Shown: in pieces, positions 4,977 through 9,232 of the stretch
Position numbering within the stretch: position 1 is the first letter of the stretch
Layout of the letters: each line of letters opens with the position of its first letter
Source of the DNA: a virus
IMG/VR virus record: IMGVR_UViG_3300034175_000088
Span: 1 to 44,836 of that record
Reading direction: 5' to 3' (one strand)
Length of the DNA stretch: 44,836 nucleotides
Program-made: the position numbers and the translations under genes
Notes under the pieces: model-generated
What the model was told of the DNA's origin: nothing
What the model saw: only the letters and a program-made list of their open reading frames with translations
The model's database searches: none

Positions 4977-5272
4977 GCGCGAGTGTCCGCTTCATATTCC
5001 CGCAAAGCCGCATCGGCGATTGCGGCAAACGGACCCATCCTGATCTTCATGCCTTGGCTTTCGCCCAGCGCGCTATCTTCACGGACGATCCGGAACAGCG
5101 CGCTATAAAGACGGTCTGCGCCACGCATCCGCCGCGTGATGCTGTCGTGAGCGCGAGTTACAGCGGCGCTCATCGCATTTTCGTCGTTCTTCTTCCAAGC
5201 ATCCACGGCGGCGGCGGCGAAGTCATGGAGGGCGGTGAGAACGATCTGTTCAGGGGAGATTGCATTCTTCAT
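4973..5272 (-). CDS. Hypothetical helical phage protein
   Basis: A 99-aa protein. The ATG at 5272 (MKNAISPEQIV) is chosen over longer upstream starts because it gives the ATGA overlap with the stop of the preceding gene. The predicted fold is three to four helices, with a basic stretch SITRRMRGADRLYSALFRIV. No motif is recognised. Confidence 0.65.
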   Translation of the reverse strand: MKNAISPEQIVLTALHDFAAAAVDAWKKNDENAMSAAVTRAHDSITRRMRGADRLYSALFRIVREDSALGESQGMKIRMGPFAAIADAALREYEADTRA

Positions 5273-6150
5273 GCGGCCAGCCTTTCGGATTTGAAGCAGT
5301 TCACGCACATCGGCGCGAAGAAGTCGGGGGTTGCGAGGTCGCGCTCGCGCGGCGGGCGATCCTCCCAGCCCCACGGGTGGCGGTTGGAAATGCGGTGCTG
5401 CAATGCTTGGATGCGGTCGGCGGTGGCCGGACACACGCGCCGGATAATGCGAAGTTCGCCCTTGCTCGCGAACGCTCCGCACAGGCATTCACCGGACATA
5501 CCGAGTTCGATGGACATCGGGTTGCGGGGTATGCCTAGATCAGCGACGTACCGCTCCCGCCAGGACTGACCCGCCCAATAGAGATGGTTCACCCACATCT
5601 GCGCGCCCTTGAAGGTGATCTCGCGCCCGCCGTAGCCGCTGCGGCGCTGGCTATCGTCGTGGCAGATGCCGGTGAGCAGCATCACCTTGTCCGATCGCGC
5701 CGTCTTGCGCTGGCGCACGACCAACTCGACGCACCGCTCCTTCAGGCGACGATACATGAGGCTGTGCGATCCAGGTCCGGGGAAGCCGTGTTCGCCCACG
5801 ATCTCGTCGTAGTCCTGCCCGCAATCCTCCTTGGCGCGCACCTCGGTAAGCGGCCAGCCTTCGCGCTCGCACGTCTCACGGACGAAGATGCGGGCGCGCT
5901 TAATGCCGATGCCCGTGTTGATGTGCAGCACTTCGCACCCGGGCACGTTGTTCATCGCCCAGTGCGTTCCGGCTAGGCTTCCGTCCCCAGCGGAGAACAT
6001 GGCGAACTTTGCGACCGGGGCATGCGCCAGGGCAGCGGTGACGATCTGCTCCATCGACGGACGCTCGACGGGGAACATCTCGTGCTGAACCACGCCGTTC
6101 CCCACCTCCATCTCTGAGAGGTCTAGTACTTTGGGAGGGGCGGCCGTCAT
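5269..6150 (-). CDS. PAPS reductase-like (PP-loop) protein
   Basis: A 293-aa member of the adenosine nucleotide alpha-hydrolase superfamily. Family marks are a PP-loop-like FSAGDGSLA at 52-60, LHINTGIG at 75-82, the GICHDDSQRR segment (GxRxxES region) at 161-170, and ECLCGAFASKGE near 221-232. Extra cysteines at 240 and the C-terminal MCVNC could complete a metal cluster. The PP-loop reads SAGDGS rather than SGGxDS. Phage members of this family are often labelled phosphoadenosine phosphosulfate reductases although the real substrate is rarely known. A role in nucleic-acid modification is possible given the nearby C5 methyltransferase (inference). Confidence 0.8.
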   Translation of the reverse strand: MTAAPPKVLDLSEMEVGNGVVQHEMFPVERPSMEQIVTAALAHAPVAKFAMFSAGDGSLAGTHWAMNNVPGCEVLHINTGIGIKRARIFVRETCEREGWPLTEVRAKEDCGQDYDEIVGEHGFPGPGSHSLMYRRLKERCVELVVRQRKTARSDKVMLLTGICHDDSQRRSGYGGREITFKGAQMWVNHLYWAGQSWRERYVADLGIPRNPMSIELGMSGECLCGAFASKGELRIIRRVCPATADRIQALQHRISNRHPWGWEDRPPRERDLATPDFFAPMCVNCFKSERLAA

Positions 6151-7448: not shown

Positions 7449-7588
7449 GAGGGCGATCCTTCCGTAAGAGCAATGTTGGCGGTGGCCACGCGGCGGCCGA
7501 ACGGGCGCGCCGCGCGGGGCGGGGGCAGGGCGTCCCAGGGGTGAGGCGGCGCGGCGAGCATGCGCGCGAGCGGGGCAAGGCGGGCCAT
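7445..7588 (-). CDS. 47-aa microprotein after the methyltransferase
   Basis: This short ORF, MARLAPLARMLAAPPH onward, is exactly coupled to both neighbours. Its ATG shares one base with the methyltransferase stop (TGATG at 7586-7590), and its TGA overlaps the GTG start of the membrane protein (GTGA). It is Pro/Arg/Ala-rich, with no fold predicted by eye. The perfect coupling is the main evidence that it is translated. Confidence 0.5.
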   Translation of the reverse strand: MARLAPLARMLAAPPHPWDALPPPRAARPFGRRVATANIALTEGSPS

Positions 7589-8664
7589 CAAGCTGCGGCC
7601 TTCACAGCAGCCGCTCCGGTGTCGGCCGCAAGACGAGCCTCAAGAGTTCGCCACGCATAGCCTGCCACCAGTGGGACGACTCCGTTTCCACAGGCCCGGA
7701 GGCGGTCCACCCGATCGGCCACCCCATGAGCCACTCGACGAACAGCGGGTTCAAGGTGCGGCGCTCTGGCGATGATGTCGGGCCATCGGGCGTCGGAGGG
7801 GCCAGGGCAGAGGAGGGGGATACCCACCGACGGCGCACCTGCGTCGAGAGCGAATGCTCGCCCGCCTTCGGAGCGGGGTTCAGCTTTGGCCCCCGCTCGC
7901 TGTCGTGAACCAGCGGTGTGCGCCATTCCGATAAGGCGATCGCCTGCCCGGTCAGCAGCATCTCGTCCGAACGGTCGCCACCCCGAGTAAGGCGCGAACC
8001 CTCCGTCACCGCGACGGACGGCGTATCCCAGAGCCGGATCGCATCGTTCAGTGTGACGCCGGCATGGTGGCGGCTGTTCGGGTTGCTCCGACCGCTCGTC
8101 GCATTTCGAGCTCCATTGCTGTCGGTCACGCAGGCGGTCGGCCATGATGAACAGCCGCTCCCGCCCGTGAGCGAAGCCGAGTTCCTTCGCGCTGAACAGT
8201 CCGACCGCAATGCGGCAACCCAGTCGCTCCAATGCCGGGACGAAGTATGCGAGCTGTCCGTCCGCATTCCCCGGGACGTTCTCGCGGAAGAGACAACGAG
8301 CCCCGCTGCGGTCGAAAACGTCGACGACGCGGTCGGCGAGCCATCGCTCGTCGGCGTCCCCGAGTCCGCGTCCGGCGACGCTGTTCGGCTGGCAGGGATC
8401 TCCCGACACGACGCAATCCACAGCGCCACGCCATGCTCCAGGGTCGAAGGTGGCGAGGTCAGACCAGATAGGCGCCGGATGGAGCCACCCGTCTTCCATG
8501 CGCGCGACCAGGATGCTGGCAGCCGCGGCTTCCCTCTCCACGTAGCAGACGCTGCGAGCCTCTGGCTCGGCGAGTCTGACGCCGAGGTCGAGCCCTCCGA
8601 CGCCAGCGCAGAGGGACAGGAGACGCCAGGGACGTACAGCCACGTCACCACGCCTCCCGGCCAT
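7588..8664 (-). CDS. DNA C5-cytosine methyltransferase
   Basis: A 358-aa AdoMet-dependent enzyme that would methylate cytosine C5 in a target site not deducible here. Motif I is LLSLCAGVGGLDLG (15-28), motif IV is GDPCQPNSVAG with nucleophile Cys91, motif VI is RENV (127-130), motif VIII is RERLFIMA, and motif X is ACGNGVVPLVAG near the end. All core motifs are present, so it is probably active. No restriction enzyme is adjacent, so a solitary phage methylase that protects phage DNA is likely (inference). The ATG at 8664 lies in the end of the previous gene. A second frame is open through almost the whole gene (see 7602-8648). Confidence 0.9.
   Translation of the reverse strand: MAGRRGDVAVRPWRLLSLCAGVGGLDLGVRLAEPEARSVCYVEREAAAASILVARMEDGWLHPAPIWSDLATFDPGAWRGAVDCVVSGDPCQPNSVAGRGLGDADERWLADRVVDVFDRSGARCLFRENVPGNADGQLAYFVPALERLGCRIAVGLFSAKELGFAHGRERLFIMADRLRDRQQWSSKCDERSEQPEQPPPCRRHTERCDPALGYAVRRGDGGFAPYSGWRPFGRDAADRAGDRLIGMAHTAGSRQRAGAKAEPRSEGGRAFALDAGAPSVGIPLLCPGPSDARWPDIIARAPHLEPAVRRVAHGVADRVDRLRACGNGVVPLVAGYAWRTLEARLAADTGAAAVKAAA
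7602..8648 (-). CDS. Out-of-phase ORF within the methyltransferase gene
   Basis: The +1 frame of the methyltransferase gene is open for 348 codons from a GTG at 8648. That GTG forms a GTGA overlap with the upstream stop, the coupling used throughout this operon. The C-terminal part does not look random: SSWPTACVTDSNGARN, TLNDAIRLW, and LNPLFVEWLMGWPIGWT are phrases I associate with the C-termini of phage C5 methyltransferases, where the last precedes motif X. Either both frames are translated, or this is a conserved by-product of dual-frame sequence constraint. I recall similar predicted proteins in other phages but cannot check. Product function unknown. Confidence 0.45.
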   Translation of the reverse strand: MTWLYVPGVSCPSALASEGSTSASDSPSQRLAASATWRGKPRLPASWSRAWKTGGSIRRLSGLTSPPSTLEHGVALWIASCREIPASRTASPDADSGTPTSDGSPTASSTFSTAAGLVVSSARTSRGMRTDSSHTSSRHWSDWVAALRSDCSARRNSASLTGGSGCSSWPTACVTDSNGARNATSGRSNPNSRHHAGVTLNDAIRLWDTPSVAVTEGSRLTRGGDRSDEMLLTGQAIALSEWRTPLVHDSERGPKLNPAPKAGEHSLSTQVRRRWVSPSSALAPPTPDGPTSSPERRTLNPLFVEWLMGWPIGWTASGPVETESSHWWQAMRGELLRLVLRPTPERLL

Positions 8665-9232
8665 AGGCTGGCTTCACCGGATCGGTCGGAACCGACCCGT
8701 CCGGGTTGACCGTCAGGAACTGACCAGAGGGCGCGATGATCGCGAGCCGCCCGGCCCAGCTGCCGCGCTTGCACCTGCCCACGATCGGGCAGGCGTGGCG
8801 GCGCACGGGGCGCTTGTTGCCGATCGCGACGTAGAGCTCCCGCTCCGATATCTCCCGCTCGATGACAATCCGCTCGACTTGCCGCGCGCTCTTGCTCCTG
8901 CGGTCGAGCTCAAGGAGCTGCTCCACGGTGAACGGGCCGTCTGGCGCGGGCGCACCGTGCCAAGGGTCCAGCTTGGACGGGGTGATGATCCGCAGCGGCC
9001 CGCTGCTGGCCGAGGGCTTCTCAGCCGCGATGCGGTCGAACCCGGCCAAGGTACAGTACCACTTCTGGCGACGCGAGAGGCTGGGAGACCCCCGGAGCTG
9101 GACGAGCCCGCGGCGCTCCAGCGCGCGCAGGGTCGGATTGCCGAAGGTGTCCTCGTGGCCGCATCCGCGCGTCGCGGCAACGGCGTGCAACATGCCCAGC
9201 TGGCCGGAATTGAGATCGTCTGGCTTCTTCAC
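8645..9232 (-). CDS. Hypothetical protein, possible winged-helix N-terminus
   Basis: A 195-aa protein. Residues 8-75 have a winged-helix-like pattern (LHAVAATRG, TLRALERRGLVQLR, then a beta strand KWYCTLAGFDRIA), common in phage proteins that read PTLRALERRGLV. The second half is basic with VERIVIEREISERELYVAIGN and a Cys-His-containing stretch (RRHACPIVGRC). DNA binding is plausible. It overlaps both neighbours by 4 bp. Confidence 0.65.
   Translation of the reverse strand: MKKPDDLNSGQLGMLHAVAATRGCGHEDTFGNPTLRALERRGLVQLRGSPSLSRRQKWYCTLAGFDRIAAEKPSASSGPLRIITPSKLDPWHGAPAPDGPFTVEQLLELDRRSKSARQVERIVIEREISERELYVAIGNKRPVRRHACPIVGRCKRGSWAGRLAIIAPSGQFLTVNPDGSVPTDPVKPAYGREAW

Follow-up and report, generated by a model that had tools for sequence, protein, structure and literature searches.

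Two overlapping reading frames of a phage C5 cytosine methyltransferase gene as the probable subunits of a split enzyme

A C5 methyltransferase gene located in the window (the whole 44836 nt stretch of viral DNA analysed, IMG/VR record IMGVR_UViG_3300034175_000088) contains two overlapping coding frames, which probably specify the two subunits of a split C5 cytosine DNA methyltransferase (estimated probability roughly 0.8). The dual coding itself is strongly supported, and well over a hundred phages and prophages have kept the same arrangement. Open dual frames, constraint on both frames, a swap of the dominant frame along the gene, a partition of the motifs between the frames, nearly coincident starts, fused and tandem forms and a shuffling of modules were all computed directly.

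Layout of the two frames in the window

The two frames and their surroundings are as follows.

7588–8664, minus strand: frame 1 (alpha), large domain of a C5 methyltransferase, 358 aa, matching PF00145 (8e-15)
7602–8648, minus strand: frame 2 (beta), the +1 frame that overlaps frame 1, 348 aa when read from GTG 8648, open and conserved, matching phrog_1008 and phrog_27243
8641–8658, minus strand: shared start region with GGGAGG (8658–8653), the frame-2 GTG at 8648 (also a GTG at 8651) and the frame-1 GTG at 8643
8645–9232, minus strand: upstream gene, 195 aa, the TGA stop of which overlaps the frame-2 start

The original prediction, made from the sequence alone, had described a +1 frame open for 348 codons from GTG 8648 to 7602 and a GTGA overlap at its start, and both were confirmed. 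The frame ends with the stop at 7602, and GTG 8648 overlaps the TGA stop of the upstream gene (8647–8645) as GTGA (8648–8645), with the open reading frame itself reaching further upstream to GTG 8774. No PHROG match was found for the upstream gene. The protein read from frame 2 is made up of an N-terminal MTWLYVP, TRD-like (target-recognition) modules and motif IX.

In the window, a single GGGAGG precedes both the frame-2 GTG at 8648 and the frame-1 GTG at 8643. Frame 1 may start at ATG 8664 or at GTG 8643, the latter being more likely by analogy. A start codon for frame 1 was found no more than 8 nt from that of frame 2 in 133 of 136 homologous loci, and often lies 4 nt upstream of it (RTGAATG). 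As the starts are only a few bases apart, ribosomes could begin either frame. Frame-2 proteins open with a conserved MxWLYVP, and an in-frame stop is present no more than 10 codons upstream of the frame-2 start in 94 of the 136 loci. The +2 GTG that results from ATG TGG arises automatically, and does not count as independent evidence.

A gene for a phosphoadenosine phosphosulfate (PAPS) reductase-like protein (phrog_424; 5269–6150) was found near the methyltransferase gene in the window, and a PAPS reductase family gene is likewise located downstream of the methyltransferase in Acidovorax phages Alfacinha1 and Alfacinha3.

Both frames are open in homologous loci

When the window locus was taken alone, codon permutation at its 68% GC gave 1.3 expected stops in the +1 frame and P = 0.17, and an argument from this single sequence would thus be weak. 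IMG/VR was searched with frame 1 and frame 2 separately, and the removal of duplicates left 150 loci, among them four phage records (Yong-M2-251, Alfacinha1, Alfacinha3 and the tandem relative Stasia). The final counts were taken from HMM coverage, because landmarks based on patterns missed some loci.

Both frames were complete in 140 of the 150 loci, which are not fully independent and from part of which the profile HMMs were built, with frame 1 uninterrupted between motifs I and X and frame 2 uninterrupted between its N-terminus and motif IX, each as a single open reading frame, at an offset of +1. This agrees with the original proposal of overprinting or of a conserved dual-coding phage gene. 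The same intact double layout was found in 66 of the 71 loci recovered with the frame-1 query, a choice that is blind to frame 2. Stop codons scattered in the +1 frame of homologues, named with the original prediction as the finding that would speak against it, were looked for over the stretch from motif I to motif VIII (not trimmed at the start of the frame-2 open reading frame). This stretch carried no frame-2 stop in 147 of 149 loci, compared with 25 expected, the exceptions being Stasia and L151. The number of stops was 5 against 238 expected, four of them in Stasia, which is not nested, and one in L151.

In bacterial genomes, the frame-2 profile found 362 loci, and the best 80 of these were mostly alphaproteobacterial; the methyltransferase was present in the other frame at all of the best 80, and both frames were complete in 76 of them. 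Family members with 50–56% GC have the same open double frame. Two controls gave values close to expectation, with 1113 stops observed and 1104 expected in the +1 frame of terminase genes, and 172 observed and 171.5 expected in 46 non-nested methyltransferase relatives of the fused or tandem kind. Chance openness at high GC was ruled out by codon permutation together with these calibrated controls.

The loci that deviate (10 of 150) include Stasia, where the genes are in tandem, L151, where frame 2 is interrupted, and L008, L014 and L075, in which frames end early. In L063, L144 and L146, frame 1 stops early past motif VIII, a later separate open reading frame encodes the motif X part and frame 2 is intact, possibly representing either a three-piece enzyme or decay. 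Apparent indels in L016 and L102, due either to natural change or to an assembly error, swap the frames and join part of one product to part of the other.

The frame-1 protein

The core C5 cytosine DNA methyltransferase motifs I, IV (Pro-Cys), VI (ENV), VIII and X were all found in frame 1, at the places where the original prediction had put them.

8581–8622, minus strand: motif I (LLSLCAGVGGLDLG)
8371–8415, minus strand: motif IV, the PC motif with the catalytic Cys91 (GDPCQPNS)
8269–8292, minus strand: motif VI (ENV)
8140–8178, minus strand: motif VIII (GFAHGRERLFIMA), over the end of which the first TRD-like module of frame 2 begins
7672–7710, minus strand: motif X (VDRLRACGNGVVP; GNGVVP)

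Residues G88, P90, C91, Q92 and S95 of motif IV were invariant among 69 sequences, as were G326 and N327 of motif X. In the AlphaFold2 model of frame 1, pLDDT was above 90 over most of residues 11–90 and 111–180 and at residues 331–350, and was 75–97 in the motif X helices (residues 321–350). Residues 199–279, which occupy the place of the TRD, had values below 50 (32–44 across 201–280), and this segment is thus predicted to be disordered. Foldseek matched the model to M.HaeIII, M.HhaI and DNMT1. A structured TRD together with motif IX in the same chain was not found in frame 1. However, a LEPAxRRxADGxAxRVDRLR stretch of frame 1 is conserved, and its LEPAxRRxADG part may represent a degenerate motif IX belonging to frame 1 itself, in which case alpha might not need beta.

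The constrained frame changes along the gene

The normalised nonsynonymous/synonymous ratio was 0.11 for frame 1 and 1.16 for frame 2 in the N part, 1.49 and 0.16, respectively, in the middle, and 0.22 and 0.39 over the motif IX/X stretch. The constrained frame therefore swaps, being frame 1 over motifs I–VIII and frame 2 in the middle, with both frames constrained over motifs IX and X. As the off-frames of terminase, an ordinary gene, gave ratios of 3.5 and 5.4, constraint also acts on the subordinate frame in every region.

The positions of substitutions in 26 independent close pairs follow the same division, with 59% at frame-1 third positions over motifs I–VIII and 54% in the middle at frame-1 first positions, which are the third positions of frame 2. 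Substitution patterns explained by frame 1 alone, also named with the original prediction as speaking against it, were thus not found, as the middle third follows frame 2. When the synonymous codons of one frame were shuffled, the similarity of the other was abolished in 141/142 and 142/142 loci, and no comparable similarity excess was found in the terminase control. In the column-wise comparison, the +2 frame also exceeded its null in the N part; a rise of this kind is to be expected where the bases are determined by two frames together, and the column-wise test is therefore not decisive by itself. Overall, the family has two of the properties by which overlapping genes are recognised, namely openness of the second frame in homologues beyond the codon-permutation expectation and purifying selection in both frames. 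Shared ancestry was considered as the source of the frame-2 similarity and rejected, as the similarity persists at 35–45% frame-1 identity and is absent in terminase at up to 54%.

The frame-2 protein

Three TRD-like modules and motif IX were located in frame 2.

8031–8144, minus strand: TRD-like module 1 (WPTACVTDSNGARN...)
7926–8030, minus strand: TRD-like module 2 (WDTPSVAVTEGSRLTRGGDRSDE...)
7755–7925, minus strand: module 3 (WRTPLVHDSE...) and linker
7704–7754, minus strand: motif IX (LNPLFVEWLMGWPIGWT), aligned with Estave1, Stasia and Colucci using hhalign; the same DNA is read in frame 1 as HLEPAVRRVAHGVADRVDR

Motif IX of frame 2 (LNPLFVEWLMGWPIGWT; 7754–7704) overlies the frame-1 stretch HLEPAVRRVAHG...VDRLRACGNGVVP. 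The methylase-like phrases that had been seen near the C-terminus of frame 2 are present, and a search of PHROGs with the protein identified phrog_1008, annotated 'DNA methyltransferase' (6e-17), and phrog_27243 (2e-15). Two methylase-like endings had been predicted for the same DNA, and both were found; with motif X carried by frame 1 and the TRD and motif IX by frame 2, they appear to be complementary parts and not rivals.

Module 1 of the window shares 82–83% identity with modules of L103 and L100 and 54% with a module of Stasia gp75. Module 2 is 79% identical to module 4 of L009 and 65% identical over 20 residues to Colucci gp83, and the Estave1 module related to it matches the same group. 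The number of WxTP modules per frame 2 varies, three or four being common. Modules at least 75% identical were found in 137 pairs between loci with less than 50% frame-1 identity, and in 86 of the 137 the modules are at different positions in the array, a pattern that exchange of recognition cassettes would give. WxTP modules in loci between L007 and L166 share up to 94% identity where the catalytic domains are distant, and do so at differing places in the array. Each module may read a separate DNA site.

Modelled alone with AlphaFold2, frame 2 had a mean pLDDT of 57.6 and a single confident stretch, around motif IX, and a fold search with this low-confidence model found no structural match. 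The middle of frame 2 is accordingly described as TRD-like on the grounds of sequence kinship and position. The N-terminal half (MxWLYVP...) is conserved, resembles no known domain and occurs only in the nested form. Among PDB sequences, frame 2 had a weak match to the coat protein of MS2 (E 0.001, 27 residues), which had no Pfam or NCBIfam support and was judged to be due to chance.

Fused and tandem relatives and the origin of the nested form

In profile comparisons, frame 1 matched motifs I–VIII of Estave1 gp75, Stasia gp76 and Colucci gp82, and frame 2 matched Estave1 at motif IX, and Stasia gp75 and Colucci gp83 at the TRD and motif IX. These parts are in one protein in Estave1, and in Stasia and Colucci they are in two adjacent genes, the second in the +1 frame. 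The matches thus put the middle of frame 2 in the place that the TRD has in other methyltransferases. Gp75 of Mycobacterium phage Estave1 has the same order of parts, namely motifs I–VIII, TP-type modules, motif IX and motif X. However, fused enzymes of this type use one frame and form one protein, and the +1 frame over their catalytic part has stops at the chance level. Tandem-split methyltransferases of the mycobacteriophage type were also found in L353, L354, L356, L358 and L361–L367, where the TRD/IX/X part is always in the +1 frame relative to motifs I–VIII, and these loci stand next to fused close relatives, a pattern that may come from repeated splitting or from frameshifting.

In a tree of catalytic domains, with outgroups drawn from few queries and a midpoint root, 76 nested loci were separated from 46 fused or tandem ones by a branch with 100/100 support, which is compatible with a single origin of the nested form. 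It is likely that a fused enzyme was split by a frameshift past motif VIII and that each gene was then extended over the other. Beta would have acquired a new N-terminal half over the code for the catalytic part of alpha, and alpha a linker over the code for the TRD of beta. On balance, there appears to be a family of phage C5 methyltransferases with the catalytic and sequence-reading domains in two frames, in which the genes have grown into each other and the TRD cassettes of frame 2 have been shuffled. As frame 1 remains open where cassettes are shuffled in frame 2, specificity could change without parting the subunits.

Proposed enzyme and alternative explanations

In the split enzyme proposed here, alpha (frame 1) would be the large catalytic domain, with the SAM-binding and catalytic motifs I–VIII linked through an unstructured segment to a C-terminal motif X, and beta (frame 2) would supply the missing small domain, with at least one WxTP target-recognition module and motif IX. 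Both frames would be translated, alpha and beta would assemble as a heterodimer with methyltransferase activity, and the methylation may shield phage DNA from restriction.

It is unlikely that translation of both frames yields, instead of two subunits, an alpha that acts alone using a degenerate motif IX and a frame-2 product that is a separate factor, such as a regulator or an anti-restriction protein with a TRD-like tail. The conserved N-terminal half of frame 2 without resemblance to a known domain would fit a separate factor, as would the conservation of the frame-1 LEPAxRRxADGxAxRVDRLR stretch itself, but the TRD region of frame 1 is disordered and not conserved, and the modules found in frame 2 are, in Estave1, flanked by motifs VIII and IX within one chain. 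Programmed +1 frameshifting past motif VIII, from frame 1 into frame 2, would make one fused methyltransferase like Estave1 gp75, and is very unlikely. A shift at the junction of motif VIII and the TRD would yield the Estave1 domain order, and the second gene of the tandem-split relatives is also in the +1 frame. However, frameshifting leaves unexplained why frame 2 is open over motifs I–VIII (147/149) and frame 1 over the TRD (140/150), and it requires a second, backward shift to reach motif X in frame 1. Frame 2 also has its own conserved MxWLYVP start, and the junction has no common slippery heptamer; a simple consensus check of 126 loci found only codon-driven conservation there.

The reading that can be given hardly any weight is that of an ordinary methyltransferase gene in which the open +1 frame is a by-product of high GC and strong constraint on frame 1. 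This would suffice for the window locus by itself, but about 488 stops are expected from codon permutation over the open stretches of the loci, the terminase and fused methyltransferase controls are calibrated, selection in the middle third acts on frame 2 and the effect is still seen at 50–56% GC.

Annotation of the two frames

Frame 1 is the annotated frame in Synechococcus phage Yong-M2-251, and frame 2 in Alfacinha1 and Alfacinha3. Judged from the coordinates in an incomplete gene table, frame 2 alone is tentatively the annotated one on plasmids of Sphingomonas paeninsulae and Roseicitreum antarcticum. As annotation often keeps one frame and drops the other, the catalytic half or the specificity half may be missing from databases. 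The second product had originally been called undescribed, which was only partly right: phrog_1008 and phrog_27243 already hold frame-2 proteins, some phage records annotate frame 2, and a second polypeptide with motif IX alone has been described for M.EcoHK31I (PMC3404938). The phage family was not found described as dual-coding in the open-access literature searched.

A long same-strand overlap that covers nearly the whole of a gene pair and has parts of one known enzyme as both products is rare, and in the family of the window it is widespread and can be tested by comparison. If the two frames do encode subunits, the family would be a natural model of how one stretch of bases can code for two folded domains, and would provide naturally split C5 methyltransferases with interchangeable recognition cassettes.

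Comparison with described split enzymes

Working enzymes result from natural and artificial splits between motif VIII and the TRD (PMC3404938, PMC5944983), and C5 methyltransferases bisected there, where the cut parts the two domains, complement well (PMC5944983). In M.AquI, a natural split past motif VIII likewise leaves two polypeptides that form one C5 methyltransferase (PMC3404938, PMC5944983). The split is in the variable region and places motifs IX and X on the small polypeptide (PMC3404938), whereas motif X is kept on alpha in the window. A second polypeptide of this type, with both IX and X, is thus absent from the window and present in Stasia and Colucci, and the pairs gp76/gp75 of Stasia and gp82/gp83 of Colucci, with motif X on the second gene, appear AquI-like. 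The ShiLan insertion in an actinobacteriophage methylase gene also has a second product in another frame, but this is a homing HNH endonuclease in an inserted segment (PMC11855218), whereas the second frame in the window encodes parts of the methyltransferase.

The nearest precedent is M.EcoHK31I (YGGCCR; Lee, Kam and Shaw 1995), and by analogy the enzyme of the window would work like it. As far as the description in PMC3404938 goes, motifs I–VIII and X and the predicted TRD are on one polypeptide of M.EcoHK31I and motif IX is on the other; as IX falls between VIII and X, the coding regions would have to overlap, given the normal gene order. Frame 1 of the window similarly carries I–VIII and X, with motif IX on a second polypeptide (frame 2; 7754–7704). 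However, the TRD is on the larger polypeptide in that description, and the TRD-like modules of the window are in frame 2, its middle being selected in frame 2 and not in frame 1. The window was therefore likened to M.EcoHK31I by description, not by sequence, and was not classed as a member of its type. Frame 2 of the window also covers nearly the full length of the gene and has its start next to that of frame 1, a layout kept across phages and prophages. Relative to M.EcoHK31I as described, the complete overlap, the TRD in frame 2, the shuffled TRD cassettes and the conservation across a whole family are new.
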